Positions 3,887-14,591 of a stretch of DNA of 64,000 nt are shown here, one piece after another. Positions within the stretch are counted from its first letter, which is position 1. The number at the start of each line of letters is the position of its first letter. Both the position numbers and the translations under genes were made by a program. Source of the stretch: Microbacterium sp. (GTDB lineage Bacteria > Actinomycetota > Actinomycetes > Actinomycetales > Microbacteriaceae); the NCBI RefSeq assembly GCF_017305435.1, contig NZ_JAFKIP010000003.1:540410-604409 (forward strand), written 5' to 3'. The notes beneath the pieces were generated by a model. That model saw only the letters and a program-made list of their open reading frames with translations. It did no database searches and had not been told where the DNA came from.

Positions 3887-5029
3887 TCAGCGCAGGAGCA
3901 GGTTCGGCTGCAGCAGGTACTTGAAGCTCTCGGGGGTTCCGGACGTCTGCGGCGTGATGAGGACGGGGCTCAGCTTGTTGGCGTTGTCGCTCGAGGTGAA
4001 CGTGATGCGGGCGAACTCGCTCTTGACCGCGCCCAGGGCTTCGAGGAGGTACTGCGGGTTGAGACCCAGCGTGACCTCTTCTCCCGTGAGGGTCGCGTCG
4101 ACCGACTCGGTGGCACGCGCCTGCTCGGTGCCCGCGGCATCCATCGAGACACCGTCCTCGGTGAATGTGAACCGCAGGGGCGCCGACCGGTCCAGCACGA
4201 GCGAGACGCGCCGCACGGCCTCGGCGAGGTCGGCCGTGCCGACGACCGCGTAGTGGTCGGTCTGCTCGGGGAAGAGGCGCCGCACGGGCGGGAAATTGCC
4301 CTTGATCAGGAGGGACGTGACCGTCTTGTTGCCCGAGGTGAAGGCGATGATCTCGCGGTCTCCCGATCCCGAGAACGACACCTGGATGTCGCCCGAGTGC
4401 GCGAAGGTCTTTCCGACCTCGGTGAGCGTGCGCGCCGGCACGAGGGCCGTGGTGGACTCGTCGCCGGCCACGGTGCCACCGTCCCACTGCACGTCGCGAA
4501 GGGCGACGCGGTAGCGGTCGGTCGCGACGAGGCTCAGCGACGTCCCCGCCACCTCGAGCTGCACGCCCGTGAGGACGGGAGTGACGTCGTCGCGCGACGC
4601 GGCGAACGCGACCTGCGAGATCGCCGTCGCGAAATCGTCCGCGGGTACGAGACCGGACTCCCCGGAGACTTCCGGGATCGCGGGGTATTCCTGCACCGGC
4701 ATCGAAGCCAGGGTGAACCGTGCCGAGCCGCACGTGAGGAGGATGCCGTCGTCCTCGGTGACCTCGATCTGGATCGGTGCGTTCGGCAGCCGGCTCGCGA
4801 TCTCGGAGAGCAGCCGGCCGTGGACGAGGATCGTGCCGGGCTCGTCGACGGTCGCCTCGATCGTCGTGCGTGCGGAGGCCTCGTAGTCGAACGCCGCGAG
4901 CGACAGACCCTCGTCGGAGGCCTCGATCAGCACGCCCGCGAGGATCGGCTGCGGGTTGCGCTGCGGCAGGAGCTTGACGACGAATGACACGGCCTCGCTG
5001 AAGACGTCGCGATTCACGTGGAACTTCAC
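3887..5029 (-). CDS. dnaN: DNA polymerase III sliding clamp (beta subunit)
   Basis: This is the processivity clamp of the replicative polymerase. At 380 residues it has the usual length and begins MKFHVNRD, the conserved actinobacterial start. Three repeated clamp domains can be followed, and the C-terminus FKYLLQPNLLLR corresponds to the conserved end near the protein-binding cleft. The start is a GTG at 5029 with an AGGGAG Shine-Dalgarno about seven bases upstream. Transcription runs away from the origin region, in the same direction as dnaA. Confidence 0.97.
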   Translation of the reverse strand: MKFHVNRDVFSEAVSFVVKLLPQRNPQPILAGVLIEASDEGLSLAAFDYEASARTTIEATVDEPGTILVHGRLLSEIASRLPNAPIQIEVTEDDGILLTCGSARFTLASMPVQEYPAIPEVSGESGLVPADDFATAISQVAFAASRDDVTPVLTGVQLEVAGTSLSLVATDRYRVALRDVQWDGGTVAGDESTTALVPARTLTEVGKTFAHSGDIQVSFSGSGDREIIAFTSGNKTVTSLLIKGNFPPVRRLFPEQTDHYAVVGTADLAEAVRRVSLVLDRSAPLRFTFTEDGVSMDAAGTEQARATESVDATLTGEEVTLGLNPQYLLEALGAVKSEFARITFTSSDNANKLSPVLITPQTSGTPESFKYLLQPNLLLR

Positions 5030-8063: not shown

Positions 8064-9182
8064 GTGCTGGATCTTCTGTACCGCGCCGCCGCCACGCCCA
8101 CCCCGGTGGTGCCGACGCCGACCACGCCGATGCCGGGCACCAGCCTGGACTTCTTCAGCGCGATCATGTGGCCGTTCAAGTGGATCGTCGAGGCGATCCT
8201 CGTGTTCTGGCACTGGATCTTCACCACCGTGGGTCTGCCGGCGGATGCCGGTCTGACCTGGGTGCTGTCGATCATCGGTCTCGTGGTGGTCGTGCGTTCC
8301 GCGCTCATCCCGCTGTTCGTGCGGCAGATCAAGAGCCAGCGCAAGATGATGGAAATCGCCCCTGAACTGCGGAAAGTTCAGGAGAAGTACCGCGGTAAGA
8401 AGGATCAGCTGTCGCGCGAGGCGATGAGCCGCGAGACGATGGCGCTCTACAAGAAGCACGGCACCACGCCCGTGTCGAGCTGCCTGCCCCTGCTCGTGCA
8501 GATGCCGATCCTGCTCGGTATGTTCTACACGCTCTCCGACGTGAAGAAGCACGCGGAGTGGGGCATGGGCGGTGTCGGCCTTCTCAGCAAGGACCTCACC
8601 TGGCAGTTCTACGAGGCCAAGCTCTTCGGCGTCGCTCCCCTGCACACAAGCCTCACCGAGGCCGTCGGCCAGAAGCCGGACGGCTGGGAGGCGACGGTCG
8701 CGATTCTCGTGATTCTCGTGATCCTCATGATCGCGTCGCAGTTCATCACGCAGCTGCAGATCATCTCGAAGAACCTCTCCCCCGAGGCCAAGACCGGCCA
8801 GGCCTACCAGATGCAGCGCATCATGCTCTACATCCTGCCGCTCGCCTTCATCTTCTCGGGTGTGTTCTTCCCGCTCGGCGTCGTCCTCTACTGGTTCACG
8901 TCCAACATCTGGACGATGGTGCAGCAGTTCCTCGTTATCCGGAACCTCCCCACGCCGGGCTCGGATGCGGCGAAGGCGCGTGAGGAGCGCTTGGCGCGAA
9001 AGGGCAAGGCCCTGGATGCCTCGGGCAAGGTGATCCCGATGGAGAAGTACGAGGCCGAGCAGAAGCGTCTGTACGAAGAGGCGCAGAAGGCCAAGGCGGA
9101 GGCGCCGAAGCGGCAGCAGCCGGTCAGCAAGCAGCGTGCGAAGAAGCAGGCACAGAAGAACAAGCCGCAGGACGAGTCCTGA
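8064..9182 (+). CDS. yidC: Membrane protein insertase YidC
   Basis: YidC/Oxa1-type insertase catalyses insertion and folding of membrane proteins, alone or with SecYEG. The protein has 372 residues from a GTG at 8064 with AAAGGA upstream. About five transmembrane segments are visible. The conserved arginine of the hydrophilic groove lies in VVVVRSALIPLFVRQ near residue 78. The cytoplasmic hairpin (KYRGKKDQLSREAMSRETM) follows, and the core ends with LYWFTSNIWTMVQQ. The C-terminal tail (about 310-372) is highly charged and Lys/Gln-rich, suited to ribosome binding. Confidence 0.97.
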   Translation: MLDLLYRAAATPTPVVPTPTTPMPGTSLDFFSAIMWPFKWIVEAILVFWHWIFTTVGLPADAGLTWVLSIIGLVVVVRSALIPLFVRQIKSQRKMMEIAPELRKVQEKYRGKKDQLSREAMSRETMALYKKHGTTPVSSCLPLLVQMPILLGMFYTLSDVKKHAEWGMGGVGLLSKDLTWQFYEAKLFGVAPLHTSLTEAVGQKPDGWEATVAILVILVILMIASQFITQLQIISKNLSPEAKTGQAYQMQRIMLYILPLAFIFSGVFFPLGVVLYWFTSNIWTMVQQFLVIRNLPTPGSDAAKAREERLARKGKALDASGKVIPMEKYEAEQKRLYEEAQKAKAEAPKRQQPVSKQRAKKQAQKNKPQDES

Positions 9183-9200
9183 ACGGGCGGGAGAAGGACC

Positions 9201-9725
9201 ATGAGTAACACGACTGACCAGGCCGGAACGGACTCCGTTCCCGTTGCTGAGGGTGCGTCGACGAGCGTCGAGCAGCTCGAGCAGGAGGGCGATATCGCGG
9301 CCGACTACCTCGAGGGCCTTCTCGACATCGCTGACATCGACGGCGACCTCACCCTCGATGTGCGAGCGGGCCGCGCGTATGTGTCGGTCGAGAACGACGA
9401 TGAGGACGCGCTCACGCTGATCTCATCGCCGGACACCGTCCAGGCGTTGCAGGAGCTCACGCGCATCGCGGTGCAGACGCAGACCGGGCGGTTCTCGCGG
9501 TTGATCCTGGATGTCGGTGGTTCGCGCGACGCGCGTCAGCGTCAGCTCGAGAAGCTGGTGGATCGTGCCATCGCCCGTCTCGACGAGGGGGCGTCGCAGG
9601 CATCCCTGCCGGCGATGTCGAGCTACGAGCGCAAGCTGGTCCACGACGTCGTCGCCGCGCGCGGGCTCGTGTCCGAGTCCTACGGCGAGGGCGCCGATCG
9701 GCACACGGTGATTCGCCGCGGCTGA
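9201..9725 (+). CDS. jag: Jag/KhpB-type RNA-binding protein (KH-R3H)
   Basis: This 174-residue homologue of the SpoIIIJ-associated protein Jag has an acidic N-terminus, then a KH-like region (about 40-100). The C-terminal R3H-type region has RQRQLEKLVDRAIARL and SSYERKLVHDVVA. Homologues bind RNA and affect envelope and cell division. The gene follows yidC by 18 bases in the conserved operon. The ATG at 9201 has a GGGAGAAGG Shine-Dalgarno. Confidence 0.92.
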   Translation: MSNTTDQAGTDSVPVAEGASTSVEQLEQEGDIAADYLEGLLDIADIDGDLTLDVRAGRAYVSVENDDEDALTLISSPDTVQALQELTRIAVQTQTGRFSRLILDVGGSRDARQRQLEKLVDRAIARLDEGASQASLPAMSSYERKLVHDVVAARGLVSESYGEGADRHTVIRRG

Positions 9726-9733
9726 TGCCGGGC

Positions 9734-9747
9734 GTTTCACGTGAAAC
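9734..9747. promoter_or_regulatory. parS site 1
   Basis: A perfect 14-base palindrome GTTTCACGTGAAAC, identical to the parS sequence recognised by ParB in Streptomyces and other actinobacteria. It lies in the jag-rsmG gap, six bases before the rsmG start. Confidence 0.95.
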
Positions 9748-9753
9748 ATCGCG

Positions 9754-10377
9754 ATGATCGAGACGGAGCCGGCAGAGGCATCCCTGGTCTTCGGTGAGCA
9801 GATCGATCGCGCACGCCTGTTCGCGGCGGCCCTCGGCGAGCATGGCGAGGAGCGCGGGCTCATCGGTCCCCTGGAGCCACCCCGTCTGTGGACGCGGCAC
9901 ATCCTCAACTCGGCTATCGCCGCGCCGCTGTTCCCCTCCGGCGGTGTCGTGGGTGACATCGGATCCGGAGCGGGATTGCCGGGTCTCGTGCTCGCGATCG
10001 CGCGGCCCGATGTGCAGTGGGTCCTGGTCGAGCCGATGGAGCGCCGTGTCGCGTGGCTTTCCGAGCAGAAGGAGTCGCTGGGTCTCGACAATGTCGAGGT
10101 GCTCCGTGCGCGCGGCGAGGACTGGACACGCGGCCCCATTCTGGATGCCGTGACCGCTCGTGCCGTCAGCGCGTTGCGTACGCTCATTCCGCTGACCGCG
10201 CCGCTCCTGCGCCCGGGTGGTGAGTTGATTCTGCTCAAGGGCGCCAACGCGCAGAACGAGATCGACGCCGCCGACAAGGCGATCCGCAAGTACAAGCTAC
10301 GAGACGTTCGCGTCGAGGTCGTCGGTGAGGGTGTCATCTCCGAACCGACCCGTGTGATCCGGGCGACCGCCGGCTGA
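9754..10377 (+). CDS. rsmG: 16S rRNA (guanine-N7)-methyltransferase RsmG
   Basis: RsmG (GidB) methylates a guanine in the 530 loop of 16S rRNA using SAM. The protein has 207 residues. The SAM-binding motif GDIGSGAGLPG is at residues 67-77, preceded by the family motif RLWTRHILNS. The ATG at 9754 has no clear Shine-Dalgarno because a parS palindrome occupies the upstream bases, so translation may be coupled to jag or initiation may be weak. It is the last gene of the rpmH operon; a repeat array follows. Confidence 0.95.
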   Translation: MIETEPAEASLVFGEQIDRARLFAAALGEHGEERGLIGPLEPPRLWTRHILNSAIAAPLFPSGGVVGDIGSGAGLPGLVLAIARPDVQWVLVEPMERRVAWLSEQKESLGLDNVEVLRARGEDWTRGPILDAVTARAVSALRTLIPLTAPLLRPGGELILLKGANAQNEIDAADKAIRKYKLRDVRVEVVGEGVISEPTRVIRATAG

Positions 10378-10404
10378 TCTCCTCCCCCTGTCTCTCCGGC
10401 GTTG

Positions 10405-10499
10405 TGATCTCTATACGCCGCGCTGCGCGCGGCACTCGATCACCGGAGGGGATCCGCCCGGTGGTTGAGTAGCCGCCGACGGCGGCGTATCGAAACCAC
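10405..10499. repeat. Paired inverted REP element A
   Basis: This is the first element after rsmG. The left unit reads as the inverted copy (TGATCTCTATACGCC...). The right unit ends GTATCGAAACCAC. The arms carry compensatory changes, so a cruciform or RNA hairpin can form. Confidence 0.85.
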
Positions 10500-10518
10500 T
10501 TCTTTTCATCGCGGGAAG

Positions 10519-10534
10519 TGTTTCACGTGAAACA
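10519..10534. promoter_or_regulatory. parS site 2
   Basis: TGTTTCACGTGAAACA, a perfect 16-base palindrome located between REP elements A and B. Confidence 0.95.
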
Positions 10535-10554
10535 TCATCGGGAGGGGTCAGCTG

Positions 10555-10643
10555 TGATCTCGATACCCCACGCTGCGCGCGGTACTCGATCACCGTGGGT
10601 CGGTGGTTGAGTAGGGCGGCGAAGCCGCGCGTATCGTAACCAC
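10555..10643. repeat. Paired inverted REP element B
   Basis: Same structure as A, with more substitutions (GATACCCCACGC, and GTATCGTAACCAC at the right end). It lies between parS sites 2 and 3. Confidence 0.85.
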
Positions 10644-10662
10644 TGCCTCTCATAGCTGGGAG

Positions 10663-10678
10663 TGTTTCACGTGAAACA
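10663..10678. promoter_or_regulatory. parS site 3
   Basis: TGTTTCACGTGAAACA, a perfect 16-base palindrome between elements B and C. Confidence 0.95.
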
Positions 10679-10697
10679 TCACCTAGGTGGTCATCTG

Positions 10698-10786
10698 TGA
10701 TCTCGATACGCCGCGCTGCGCGCGGCACTCGATCACCGAGGGTCGGTGGTTGAGTAGCGCGGCGAAGCCGCGCGTATCGAAACCAC
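10698..10786. repeat. Paired inverted REP element C
   Basis: A well-conserved copy. Unlike the other full elements it is not followed directly by parS but by the GIY-YIG gene. Confidence 0.85.
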
Positions 10787-10879
10787 ATCCACTCCTCCAC
10801 ATTCGACCAATCGTCGGATCTCTCCACAGATTGATCGGCGTCACCACGGGGCTCTGCCGCCCCCGCGCATCATCGTGGC

Positions 10880-11188
10880 TTGGCATATATGTACATCCTC
10901 GAGTGCGCAGACCACTCCTACTACGTGGGCAGTACGCGCAACCTCGAGCATCGGCTCTGGTTGCACGACATCGGTGAGGGCGCCGAGTACACCAAGCGCC
11001 GACGACCGCTGGAGCTCGTCTACGTCGAGGAGTTCGCCCAGGTGGCGGATGCACTCGCGCGGGAGAAGCAGGTTCAGGGGTGGAGTCGCGCCAAGAGACA
11101 GGCGCTGATCTCGTATCACGGAGACCAACTGCCGGATCTTTCGCGCAAGCGATTCACCCATGACGATGAGTCGACGGGTGCGTTGTGA
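10880..11188 (+). CDS. Small GIY-YIG nuclease-domain protein
   Basis: This 102-residue single-domain protein belongs to the GIY-YIG superfamily (UvrC N-terminal/YhbQ-like). The signature reads MYILECADHSYYVGST, followed by the catalytic-type arginine in NLEHRL and a conserved glutamate in ALAREKQVQGWSRAKR. Such proteins cut or are predicted to cut DNA; the biological role of this subfamily is mostly unknown. The start is a TTG at 10880, or an ATG at 10889. The stop TGA is the first three bases of REP element D. The gene sits inside the parS/REP array between elements C and D, the only coding sequence there, so it may have been inserted into or carried with the repeats. Confidence 0.8.
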   Translation: MAYMYILECADHSYYVGSTRNLEHRLWLHDIGEGAEYTKRRRPLELVYVEEFAQVADALAREKQVQGWSRAKRQALISYHGDQLPDLSRKRFTHDDESTGAL

Positions 11189-11274
11189 TCTCGATACACC
11201 GCGCTGCGCGCGGCACTCGATCAACGAACTCCGGTGGTTGAGTAGCGCGGCGCAGCCGCGCGTATCGAAACCAC
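11186..11274. repeat. Paired inverted REP element D
   Basis: Its first bases TGATCTCGATAC provide the stop codon of the GIY-YIG gene. The right unit ends GTATCGAAACCAC. Confidence 0.88.
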
Positions 11275-11293
11275 AGCCTTTTGCCACGGCAAG

Positions 11294-11309
11294 TGTTTCA
11301 CGTGAAACA
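11294..11309. promoter_or_regulatory. parS site 4
   Basis: TGTTTCACGTGAAACA, a perfect 16-base palindrome between elements D and E. Confidence 0.95.
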
Positions 11310-11328
11310 CCGACTGAAGGGTGCGCCG

Positions 11329-11425
11329 TGATCTCGATATACCGCGCTGCGCGCGGCACTCGATCACCGAGGGGCTCACGCCCGGTGGTTGAGTAGCGCG
11401 GCGCAGCCGCGCGTATCGAAACCAC
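11329..11425. repeat. Paired inverted REP element E
   Basis: A full copy with a longer central spacer (GAGGGGCTCACGCC) between the two REP units. It is very similar to element F. Confidence 0.88.
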
Positions 11426-11446
11426 AGCCTTCTGCCGCGGGCAATC

Positions 11447-11460
11447 GTTTCACGTGAAAC
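11447..11460. promoter_or_regulatory. parS site 5
   Basis: The GTTTCACGTGAAAC core is perfect. The outer base pair is broken (C on the left, A on the right), unlike sites 2-4. Confidence 0.93.
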
Positions 11461-11479
11461 ATGACGGGCGGGTGGGGTG

Positions 11480-11575
11480 TGATCTCGATACACCGCCCTG
11501 CGCACGGCACTCGATCACCGAGGGGGCTCGCGCCCGGTGGTTGAGTAGCCGCCGGAGGCGGCGTATCGAAACCAC
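11480..11575. repeat. Paired inverted REP element F
   Basis: A full copy with a spacer similar to E. Its right unit core is GCCGCCGGAGGCGGC, as in element A (GCCGCCGACGGCGGC), showing compensatory exchange of hairpin stems. Confidence 0.88.
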
Positions 11576-11596
11576 AGCGTTCTGCCGCGGGCAAGC

Positions 11597-11610
11597 GTTT
11601 CACGTGAAAC
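11597..11610. promoter_or_regulatory. parS site 6
   Basis: The GTTTCACGTGAAAC core is perfect and lies between elements F and G. Confidence 0.93.
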
Positions 11611-11631
11611 ATCGTCGGGAGGGGTGAGGTG

Positions 11632-11693
11632 TGATCTCGATATACCACGCTGCGCGCGGCACTCGATCACCGGAGTCCGGGGCGTGGTTGAGC
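11632..11693. repeat. Truncated REP element G
   Basis: The left REP unit is intact (TGATCTCGATATACC...), but the right unit stops after TGGTTGAG. A parS site follows nine bases later. This is the parA-proximal end of the array. Confidence 0.8.
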
Positions 11694-11701
11694 GGCGAGT
11701 G

Positions 11702-11715
11702 TTTCACGTGAAACG
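11702..11715. promoter_or_regulatory. parS site 7, in parA promoter region
   Basis: A perfect GTTTCACGTGAAAC 60 bases before the parA start. A -10-like TACAGT lies at 11742-11747, so the site falls just upstream of the expected -35 position. ParB bound here could regulate parAB. Confidence 0.93.
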
Positions 11716-11741
11716 GGGATGAAGGGGGAGAGGCCTCGACT

Positions 11742-11747
11742 ACAGTG
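11742..11747 (+). promoter_or_regulatory. Candidate parAB -10 element
   Basis: TACAGT in the form TANNNT, about 28 bases before the parA start and followed by an ATAGGAG Shine-Dalgarno at 11765-11771. There is no good -35 match, which would be consistent with regulation from the adjacent parS. Confidence 0.4.
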
Positions 11748-11774
11748 GAATGGTCCCCGAAACGATAGGAGTCC

Positions 11775-12710
11775 GTGGTGCAGGAATCGGAGAACGCGAC
11801 CGCTCCCGCACCCTTCTCTATCGATGACAGCCCGATTGCGCGCGAACTCGCGGACCTCACGTCTCGACGCCGGGCACTGGATGCCGTGTCTCTCGATTTC
11901 GAGGGAAAGACGCGCATCCTCACGGTGTCGAACCAGAAGGGCGGGGTGGGCAAGACCACCACAACCGTCAACATCGCCGCGGCGCTGGCCACACTCGGAG
12001 CACGCGTCCTCGTGATCGACCTCGATCCGCAGGGAAACGCATCGACGGCTCTCGGTGTCCCGCACACGGCCGACATCCCGAGCGTCTACGACGTCCTGAT
12101 CGACGAGTTCCCCCTCGCCGACATCATCCAGACGAGCCCGGAATCCCCGAACCTGCTGTGCGCGCCGAGCACGATCCACCTCGCCGGCGCGGAGATCGAG
12201 CTGGTATCCCAGGTCGCCCGCGAGCACCGGCTGCGCACGGCGCTGGAGGAGTACCTCGCGGCATCCACTGATCGTCTGGACTACGTCCTCATCGACTGCC
12301 CGCCGTCGCTCGGACTGCTCACGATCAACGCATTCACGGCGGCCGACGAGCTCATGATCCCCATTCAGTGCGAGTACTACGCGCTGGAAGGCCTCAGCCA
12401 GCTCCTCGGGAGCATCCGGATGATTCAGAAGCATCTGAACCCCACGTTGCACCTCTCGACGATCCTTCTCACGATGTATGACGGACGGACGCGGCTGGCG
12501 CAGCAGGTCGCGGAGGAGGTGCGCGCGCACTTCCCGAGCGAGGTGCTGACGACCGTCATCCCGCGTACGGTGCGCGTGTCCGAGGCTCCGAGCTTCGGGC
12601 AGACGGTCATCGCGTACGACCCGCAGTCGGTCGGCGCCGTGTCGTACCGTGAAGCAGCGGTCGAGCTGGTGCAGCGACAGCGAGTCAAGGCGAACGAGGA
12701 AGGCAACTGA
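11775..12710 (+). CDS. parA: Chromosome-partitioning ATPase ParA
   Basis: ParA/Soj is a deviant-Walker ATPase that segregates ParB-parS complexes. The protein has 311 residues. The deviant Walker A motif KGGVGKTTT is at about 55-63, with the signature lysine. DLDPQGNAST and the Walker B-like LIDCPPSLG follow. Two GTG codons, 11775 and 11778, are possible starts; 11778 is better spaced from the AGGAG at 11767. It overlaps parB by one base (TGATG). The parS cluster directly upstream is its functional partner. Confidence 0.97.
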   Translation: MVQESENATAPAPFSIDDSPIARELADLTSRRRALDAVSLDFEGKTRILTVSNQKGGVGKTTTTVNIAAALATLGARVLVIDLDPQGNASTALGVPHTADIPSVYDVLIDEFPLADIIQTSPESPNLLCAPSTIHLAGAEIELVSQVAREHRLRTALEEYLAASTDRLDYVLIDCPPSLGLLTINAFTAADELMIPIQCEYYALEGLSQLLGSIRMIQKHLNPTLHLSTILLTMYDGRTRLAQQVAEEVRAHFPSEVLTTVIPRTVRVSEAPSFGQTVIAYDPQSVGAVSYREAAVELVQRQRVKANEEGN

Positions 12711-13786
12711 TGGCGAAGCGCACAGGATTGGGCCGGGGGATCGGTGCCCTCATCCCGACCACCGAGAGCACCGAGTCCCGCCCGGTCGACGTGTTCTTCC
12801 CTGGGGCATCGACCGCAGTGAAAGCGCCCGGAGCGTCGATACCGGCGAAAGATGCCGCGGATGCCGCCGGTGCCGTAAGCCCTTCCGGTACCGGAGCGAT
12901 CGCCGAGGACGCCCCGGTGACGGACGGCGCTCACGCAACGGCCGAGGTCGACGCCGATCTCGTCACGGTCCCGGGCGCGCAGCTCATCGAGATCGACCCG
13001 AACGAGATCGTGCCGAACCCCCGGCAGCCGCGGACCAACTTCGACGCGGACGACCTCGCTGAGCTGGTGCATAGCGTGCGCGAGTTCGGCGTCCTGCAGC
13101 CCGTCGTCGTGCGTCGCAACGATGAAGGCGCGTACGAGTTGATCATGGGTGAACGCCGCACCCGTGCATCGCGCGAAGCCGGCCTCACCTCGATCCCCGC
13201 GATCGTCCGCGACACCGCGGACGACGATCTGCTGCGCGACGCCCTCCTCGAGAACCTGCACCGCTCGCAGCTCAATCCTCTCGAAGAGGCATCCGCCTAT
13301 CAGCAGCTCCTCGAGGACTTCGGCATCACGCAGGAGCAGCTCGCGACGCGCATCGGCCGCTCACGCCCCCAGATCAGCAACACCATCCGCCTGCTCAAGC
13401 TGCCCGTTCCGGTGCAGCAGCGCGTCGCGGCGGGGGTGCTGAGCGCGGGGCACGCGCGGGCGATCCTCTCGCTCGACAACGTCGAGGCGATGCAGCGCCT
13501 CTCGGACAAGATTGTCAACGAGGATCTCTCCGTCCGCGCCGCGGAGGCGGCGGCGAAGGGGGTGGATGCCGCGGCGCACCGCACCCCGGCACCCAAGGCC
13601 GGCGCGCGCCGCGCTCACCTCGACGATGTCGCAGAGCGGCTGGGTGACCGGCTCAACACAAAGGTCAAGATTTCGCTGTCCGCGAGAAAAGGCCAGGTCA
13701 TCATTGATTTCGCGACCGTTCAGGATCTCAACCGGATCCTCGCGGAGATCGGCGAGACCGAGTACGGCGCCACTGCGGGAGCGTAG
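12710..13786 (+). CDS. parB: Chromosome-partitioning protein ParB
   Basis: ParB binds parS and spreads as a CTP-dependent clamp. The protein has 358 residues. The N-terminal motif RTGLGRGIGALIP is the ParA-contacting region, followed by an Ala/Ser/Asp-rich linker (about 20-90). The CTPase/ParB-N domain has NPRQPRTNFD and GERRTRASREAG. The helix-turn-helix follows (EQLATRIGRSRPQISNTIRL), and the C-terminal dimerisation domain ends in FATVQDLNRIL. The seven parS sites at 9734-11715 are its expected targets. Confidence 0.97.
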   Translation: MAKRTGLGRGIGALIPTTESTESRPVDVFFPGASTAVKAPGASIPAKDAADAAGAVSPSGTGAIAEDAPVTDGAHATAEVDADLVTVPGAQLIEIDPNEIVPNPRQPRTNFDADDLAELVHSVREFGVLQPVVVRRNDEGAYELIMGERRTRASREAGLTSIPAIVRDTADDDLLRDALLENLHRSQLNPLEEASAYQQLLEDFGITQEQLATRIGRSRPQISNTIRLLKLPVPVQQRVAAGVLSAGHARAILSLDNVEAMQRLSDKIVNEDLSVRAAEAAAKGVDAAAHRTPAPKAGARRAHLDDVAERLGDRLNTKVKISLSARKGQVIIDFATVQDLNRILAEIGETEYGATAGA

Positions 13787-13795
13787 GCTGGACGG

Positions 13796-14137
13796 GTGAC
13801 CGACCGCCCACCGCTCCCGCGACGCGCCAGCCTCGAGGTGCTGCGCGCCGAGGCATCCGATGAGCTTTCGGTGCTCATCGAGGAGCGGATCCGCGACGGT
13901 GAGGACCCCTGGGACTTCATGGAGGACCTCCCGTCGGTCGACGAACTGGTCGTCCTCACGCTGCGCGCGGAGAACATCGCCGCCGACGGCGGCAACCGCC
14001 CGACCGTCGCGCGCAACTACCGGGTGCTGCGACAGATCTCGCTCGACTACCCGGCACTCACGCGTGCCGTGTGGCGACTGCTCGGCAGCGAGCCGCACCG
14101 CACGTGGGATGCCTCGGTGCGCGTCGAAGCGTCCTGA
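13796..14137 (+). CDS. Conserved hypothetical protein downstream of parB
   Basis: This 113-residue soluble protein has an acidic middle part (EERIRDGEDPWDFMEDLPSVDELV) and no recognised domain. The GTG start at 13796 is six bases after TAGGCT (13784-13789), a -10-like sequence, and there is no Shine-Dalgarno, so a leaderless transcript is likely. Alternatively it is read through from parB, nine bases upstream. A degenerate REP unit begins just after the stop. Function unknown. Confidence 0.7.
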   Translation: MTDRPPLPRRASLEVLRAEASDELSVLIEERIRDGEDPWDFMEDLPSVDELVVLTLRAENIAADGGNRPTVARNYRVLRQISLDYPALTRAVWRLLGSEPHRTWDASVRVEAS

Positions 14138-14180
14138 TGTGGTCTCGATACACCGCGCTCCGCGCGGCACTCGACCGCCG
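14138..14180. repeat. Degenerate single REP unit
   Basis: GGTCTCGATACACCGCGCTC and the following CGCGCGGCACTCGACC match the left unit of the REP elements in the rsmG-parA array, with several changes. It starts directly after the stop codon of the preceding gene. Confidence 0.75.
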
Positions 14181-14219
14181 GCGGGAGCTGCGCGCGGCAT
14201 CCGACCACCGAAGTTGCAC

Positions 14220-14262
14220 GACGCTGCGGCGCTCGACCGATGAACGGGAGCGCCGCAGCGTC
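14220..14262 (-). terminator. Hairpin terminator after trxA
   Basis: Perfect 15-base inverted arms (GACGCTGCGGCGCTC and its complement) are separated by a 13-base loop, five bases beyond the trxA stop. There is no T-tract, as is usual in high-GC actinobacteria. It may stop transcription from both sides. Confidence 0.75.
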
Positions 14263-14267
14263 GGCGA

Positions 14268-14591
14268 TCAGGCGAGGTAGGTGGCGAGGTCCTGCTCGAG
14301 GGCGAACTTCGGCTTCGCGCCGATGATCGTCTTCTCGACCTGGCCCTTGTTGAACACCTTCATCGCGGGGATGGAGGTGATCTGGTACTCCATCGCGAGG
14401 TTGGGGTTCTCGTCGACGTTGAGCTTCAGGACGGTGATCTTGTCGCCGTTCTCCGTCTGGATCTCGTCGAGGATGGGCCCGACCATGCGGCACGGCCCGC
14501 ACCAGGCGGCCCAGAAGTCGACCAGAACGGGGCCTTCCGCGTCGATGACGTCCTGCTGCCAGGTGCTCTCGCTCGTGGCCTTCGCGGTCAT
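14268..14591 (-). CDS. trxA: Thioredoxin
   Basis: This is a small cytosolic disulfide reductase of 107 residues. The active site WCGPC has its cysteines at 31 and 34, and the conserved cis-proline is in SIPAMKVF. The ATG at 14591 has an AAGGAG Shine-Dalgarno. It lies 89 bases downstream of trxB on the same strand, so thioredoxin reductase and thioredoxin are probably co-transcribed. Confidence 0.97.
   Translation of the reverse strand: MTAKATSESTWQQDVIDAEGPVLVDFWAAWCGPCRMVGPILDEIQTENGDKITVLKLNVDENPNLAMEYQITSIPAMKVFNKGQVEKTIIGAKPKFALEQDLATYLA

Follow-up and report, generated by a model that had tools for sequence, protein, structure and literature searches.

The stretch of DNA analysed here (the window, 64 kb of a Microbacterium sp. 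chromosome) raises the question of why the parS sites between rsmG and parA alternate with paired inverted REP hairpins, and whether these repeats are part of the centromere. We consider it probable that a GIY-YIG nuclease gene and the REP hairpins cognate to it together make up the array, which would reside among the parS sites of the rsmG-parA gap. The hairpin repeats appear to belong to the nuclease, whose gene lies midway through the array, and the pairing recurs in other actinobacteria.

Organization of the parS cluster

The window contains seven exact parS sites (GTTTCACGTGAAAC), and the whole-genome search placed every exact site of the 3.5-Mb genome, seven in total, within positions 9734–11714, confirming the seven perfect sites within 2 kb described by the sequence-only reading. 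When up to two mismatches were allowed, eight sites were found against 0.08 expected from shuffles, the eighth being a parS-like site at 5011 with two mismatches. The features of the locus are listed below in window positions; parS sites and REP pairs carry no strand.

9734..9747: parS 1, exact match, upstream of rsmG
9754..10377, + strand: rsmG (gidB), PF02527 8e-44, left border of the gap
10404..10499: REP pair 1 (A, then inverted B), REP matches
10520..10533: parS 2, exact match
10554..10643: REP pair 2, REP matches
10664..10677: parS 3, exact match
10697..10786: REP pair 3, single REPs with z −3.4 and −4.1, pair with z −6.0
10880..11188, + strand: standalone GIY-YIG nuclease, 102 aa, UPF0213-like, PF01541 6.8e-17, 1zg2 6e-14
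11185..11274: REP pair 4, its first bases providing the nuclease stop codon
11295..11308: parS 4, exact match
11328..11425: REP pair 5, REP matches
11447..11460: parS 5, exact match
11479..11575: REP pair 6, REP matches
11597..11610: parS 6, exact match
11631..11692: REP pair 7, second REP cut down to its first bases
11701..11714: parS 7, exact match, adjoins parA
11775..12710, + strand: parA, PF13614 6e-59, right border of the gap
12710..13786, + strand: parB, PF02195 2e-33 and PF17762

The first parS lies 656 bases ahead of the first REP; the other six are located in the rsmG-parA gap, at spacings of 144, 631, 152, 150 and 104 bases. Canonical parS palindromes adjoining parA and parB are what this locus shares with the parS clusters of chromosomal ParABS systems, and the sites are putative ParB-binding sites. 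The locus differs from such clusters in that mobile-looking repeats and a nuclease gene lie between the sites, and in that the units were duplicated together. The best named match of ParA was from Microbacterium sp. MYb54 (75%). An ORF of 113 aa after parB (13796–14137) had no Pfam match at 0.001. No known RNA element was recognized, since positions 9000–14500 had no Rfam match at the gathering score, and a plasmid origin of the array was rejected because positions 10388–11770 had no match in the plasmid collection.

The REP hairpins

In the 1.4-kb gap, seven inverted REP pairs alternate with six parS sites, the last pair being truncated. REP A has the form GTGATCTCGATAC-stem-GCACTCGATCACCG and REP B, its inverted relative, the form GGTGGTTGAGTAG-stem-GTATCGAAACCAC; they represent one hairpin family. 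The alternation recognized from the letters alone thus holds, but one interval, that of 631 bases, is occupied by the nuclease ORF, which had been overlooked. A REP pair is followed by a parS after 20–21 bases (5 cases), and a parS by another REP pair after 18–20 bases (5 cases, not counting the interval that holds the nuclease ORF). These near-constant distances point to tandem duplication of whole units.

Two single REPs (z −3.4 and −4.1) and three REP pairs (z −3.3 to −6.0) folded more stably than shuffled sequence. Arm sequences of family-1 hairpins vary while their pairing is kept: the paired fraction was 0.83, versus 0.56 with arms exchanged (n=94), and none of 500 shuffles was as high. 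Two REP families were modelled, and the shuffled control gave no matches at 12 bits. At the 10-bit threshold, which is not chance-free (two matches in about 1.2 Mb of shuffled control), the family-1 model found 15 matches in the window, 13 of them in the 1.4-kb gap. The remaining two are single matches outside the array, at 14136 and 50376. In stretches sampled from the rest of the source genome (L304–L319), REPs of the same family are dispersed away from parS, mostly as single copies of type A.

The GIY-YIG nuclease gene

The nuclease ORF sits between parS 3 and parS 4. It starts at TTG 10880 or ATG 10889, and its stop codon (11186–11188) falls within the REP that begins at 11185. The GIY-YIG domain scored 62 bits in Pfam, against a cut-off of 22.6. 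Residues Y5, Y15, G17, R25, H29 and E62, which we take to be the catalytic-type residues of GIY-YIG nucleases, are invariant among 22 aligned sequences. The nearest solved relatives are the standalone UPF0213 proteins 1zg2 and 1ywl, which have the same domain and length; unlike them, the nuclease described here is tied to a REP family, a tie for which our literature searches gave no counterpart. No NCBIfam family was assigned to it at 0.001. A second GIY-YIG match in the source genome, the only other one, lies in a 729-aa frame taken to be UvrC. The other GIY-YIG locus of this genome (L002) has no REP-model matches within 1.5 kb. Phage copies were rejected; the 23 phage records with GIY-YIG relatives all showed identities below 60%.

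Distribution in the genus

The genus search covered 149 genomes, of which 143 carry exact parS and 142 gave an RsmG match. Regions of low quality or with rsmG at a contig end (G003, G022, G043, G045, G054, G090 and G104) were excluded, as were G065 and G142, where a contig ends, and G040, which gave nothing better than a weak match; G108 and G123 were retained though less than 90% complete. The 132 rsmG-parA regions kept have gaps of 86 bp to more than 6.5 kb, the whole gap being spanned in 117, and among these 117 the number of parS rises with gap length (rho 0.70).

REPs are present in 31 of the 132 gaps and a standalone GIY-YIG gene in 24. Both occur together in 24 gaps, the nuclease gene alone in none, REPs alone in 7 and neither in 101 (Fisher p=1.9e-20). 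In three genomes (G017, G046 and G109) the nuclease gene was matched in two pieces, as if decaying. REP density per kb is 18-fold higher in the gaps (269 in 317 kb) than in the flanks (41 in 863 kb), a ratio that would be smaller with non-coding DNA alone as the reference. A tree of RsmG, ParA and ParB (116 rows) requires 15 changes of the REP state and 12 of the state of the nuclease gene, which implies frequent gains and losses, the two being inseparable from each other on this tree.

A ParA search of genome contigs added 80 loci, mostly from distant lineages, of which eight (L003–L010) were mapped, while L011–L082 served only as control windows. The rsmG-parA gap of Homoserinibacter gongjuensis (L006:3817-4970) contains REPs and a GIY-YIG gene matched in two pieces. 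Five parS gaps devoid of REPs have inverted repeats near both ends: G014 (L188), G074 (L215), G115 (L223), G123 (L195) and G110 (L231). The gap of G014 seems, by eye, to have an ORF in its middle.

REPs and the number of parS sites

The sequence-only reading suggested that the whole REP-REP-parS unit had been duplicated, judging by related bases beside each parS, and that the repeats thereby amplify parS. The first part is supported. With REPs masked, 7 of the 15 pairs of parS flanks in the source genome lie above the 99.5th percentile of between-genome pairs. Duplicated flanks were detected under the same masking in 13 of 26 REP-bearing genomes versus 6 of 94 REP-less ones (p=1.5e-6), the 26 being those with enough unmasked sequence among the 29 REP-bearing genomes that have two or more parS; the unmasked figures are 19/29 and 7/94. 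The duplicated flanks in the masked test indicate that the duplicated unit comprised both REP and parS. A REP lies between consecutive parS in 73 of 95 intervals from 27 gaps, compared with 59.2 (sd 3.8) after shuffling, and none of 2000 shuffles was as high. Other species carry similar REP-parS composites with different unit lengths.

The second part fails as a rule: parS numbers are equal, with a median of 4 in 27 REP-bearing gaps versus 5 in 88 REP-less ones (p=0.79), which rules out a general REP-driven gain of parS, and REP-less gaps hold up to 12 parS (G101). The expected covariation of REP and parS copies was found in part, within the REP-bearing gaps (rho 0.45, p=0.018), but in the same gaps the length of the gap is the stronger correlate of parS number (rho 0.77). 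In the tree, the closest relative is G047, whose 1.5-kb gap has seven parS and no REPs; it comes close to the refuting case named by the sequence-only reading, a relative with the same parS spacing but free of REP units, though its spacings differ. The gap of the window can be aligned with that of G047 only from parS 7 onward. The equal parS numbers and the REP-less G047 indicate that REPs rearrange parS and do not multiply them.

These results bear on the idea that the REPs are a host device which builds or tunes the centromere, either by amplifying parS or through hairpins that restrain the sliding of ParB or are bound by a chromosome protein, and which is retained for that purpose. The regular alternation at constant spacing, the recurrence of similar composites in several species and the correlation within REP-bearing gaps agree with it. 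We nevertheless regard it as unlikely, given that REPs occupy 31 of 132 gaps, that parS number is indifferent to their presence and better explained by gap length, that G047 keeps seven parS with zero REPs, and that the same REP-nuclease pairs are found at parS-free loci. The REP family is also found with GIY-YIG genes at loci that lack parS, and it is not a part of the centromere in general. In the source genome, the REPs would have reshuffled the centromere and not built it.

Nuclease and REPs beyond the parS cluster

The best 30 GIY-YIG loci of the genus, 12 of which are at the parS locus, all have REP-model matches within 1.5 kb. At 10 bits or more and within the same distance, matches accompany 25/25 genes of the parS locus, 19/19 other GIY-YIG genes of the genus (18 distinct, as L279 repeats L087) and 38/50 genes of other genera; several of the 12 loci without matches carry other repeats. 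A model-free search gave a similar picture, repeats of at least three copies being present in 29/30, 24/28 and 21/25 GIY-YIG loci versus 4/96 and 2/56 control windows. Together these are 74 of 83 loci, two duplicates included (L279 and L280, in the set of 25), versus 6 of 152 control windows, which are mostly coding.

In a tree of 70 GIY-YIG proteins (98 columns, branch support 83), the REP family requires one change, compared with about 20 if shuffled, six unclassified proteins not being counted. The family-1 nucleases sampled within the genus are all from the parS locus. In these sequence comparisons, nuclease and REPs go together, and the family of the REPs corresponds to the clade of the nuclease. 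A single locus inherited as one block could give the same appearance of co-evolution; the many gene contexts argue against this, since, with loci shorter than 3 kb left out, 13 contexts were found in the genus among 17 loci away from parS, one of them counted twice, and 40 in the 49 loci from elsewhere.

On the two sides of the nuclease gene, the nearest REPs tend to be oriented toward each other: the nearest upstream REP is '+' in 61/80 cases and the nearest downstream one '-' in 53/75 (p=4e-9, all loci). An insertion sequence with terminal inverted repeats would have such ends, but the tendency was not significant among the 19 loci of the genus away from parS (p=0.33) or by a k-mer test (41/66 loci). 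The downstream REP match begins a median of 9 bases past the stop codon and reaches or overlaps it in 27/75. The comparisons of G073 with G061/G105, G000 with G047 and G066 with G118 yielded no clean empty site, the gaps aligning little beyond their ends. Between REP-bearing pairs (e.g., G094 and G017), the gaps align in part and the nuclease gene is at the same place.

Among distant GIY-YIG relatives outside the class, repeats of at least three copies were found at 4 of 25 loci. Near L329, L333, L338 and L327 there are GTCATTGCGAG, GTCATTCTGAG or GTCATTCCG-type repeats, a hint that the system may reach beyond the class.

A further explanation is that the nuclease is a bystander and the REPs are ordinary intergenic repeats, which gather in long non-coding DNA such as the parS gap. 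That gap is indeed long and variable, and seven gaps have REPs and no GIY-YIG gene. Yet every one of the 24 gaps with the nuclease gene has REPs, and 101 of the 108 gaps lacking the gene have none, long ones included; moreover, the REP family follows the GIY-YIG clade, and the control windows, mostly coding, are without such repeats. We give this explanation a small probability, slightly below that of the host device.

Comparison with REPtrons and proposed mechanism

A REPtron (PMC8266576, PMC3116915 and PMC2817692) is a RAYT (TnpA-REP) transposase together with its REPs, and RAYT-type REPs carry GTAG before the hairpin (PMC8266576). The elements described here resemble REPtrons in their short imperfect hairpins, in the association of a repeat family with a single nuclease gene, around which the copies are sometimes concentrated, and in the inverted pairing of the short palindromes (REPIN- or BIME-like). 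They differ in several respects. The enzyme is a GIY-YIG nuclease and not a Y1 HuH transposase, and it would be this nuclease that cleaves the REPs; the GTAG tag is present on some REPs, namely REP B of the window, and absent at that place from REP A and REP family 2; and the REPs in most loci appear to flank the gene as facing ends and in the window continue through the parS cluster. By analogy, the system may work like a REPtron without its defining gene.

That the REPs were spread long ago by a RAYT transposase since lost, with the GIY-YIG gene settling among them later, is the least likely of the explanations considered, very improbable in our judgement: the GTAG of REP B does match RAYT-type REPs as the cited text describes them, but A hairpins and family 2 lack it, the REP family matches the GIY-YIG clade, and the Y1 domain PF01797 is confined to one of 149 genomes (G040), which has neither exact parS nor this REP by pattern. 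A RAYT was also rejected as the present mover, being absent from the source genome and 147 others.

We therefore return to the nuclease and its cognate REPs, a pairing that seems to have settled in a bacterial centromere and shuffled it. In the mechanism that we propose, the nuclease would cut REP hairpins, single-stranded or in cruciform, near the replication origin. Repair of the break by recombination or replication slippage could then duplicate, delete or disperse REPs, and a parS located between two REPs would be carried along. The outcome would be a quick turnover of parS units with no net gain of parS, and decay of the nuclease gene would leave REPs behind. The centromere may tolerate this turnover, since any intact parS would serve ParB as a loading site.

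For a broader reading, the chances are about even: a RAYT-independent REP system would operate in actinobacteria, in which each GIY-YIG nuclease spreads its own hairpins, and in this genus the centromere would have been occupied more than once and remodelled by duplication of REP-parS units. Among the matches listed in our literature searches, we found no paper tying GIY-YIG nucleases to REPs, and an earlier report may exist, as preprints and subscription papers were mostly outside the search; for parS with Microbacterium and parS with REP sequences, nothing on point was among the matches listed.

In the literature considered here, REPs whose spread is explained belong with a single family of enzymes, the RAYTs. 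Another REP-tied nuclease, found in many actinobacterial genera, would represent a second route to this common class of repeats. Its home in the parS cluster would provide a natural example of a repeat, selfish in appearance, that lives in, and rearranges, a bacterial centromere.
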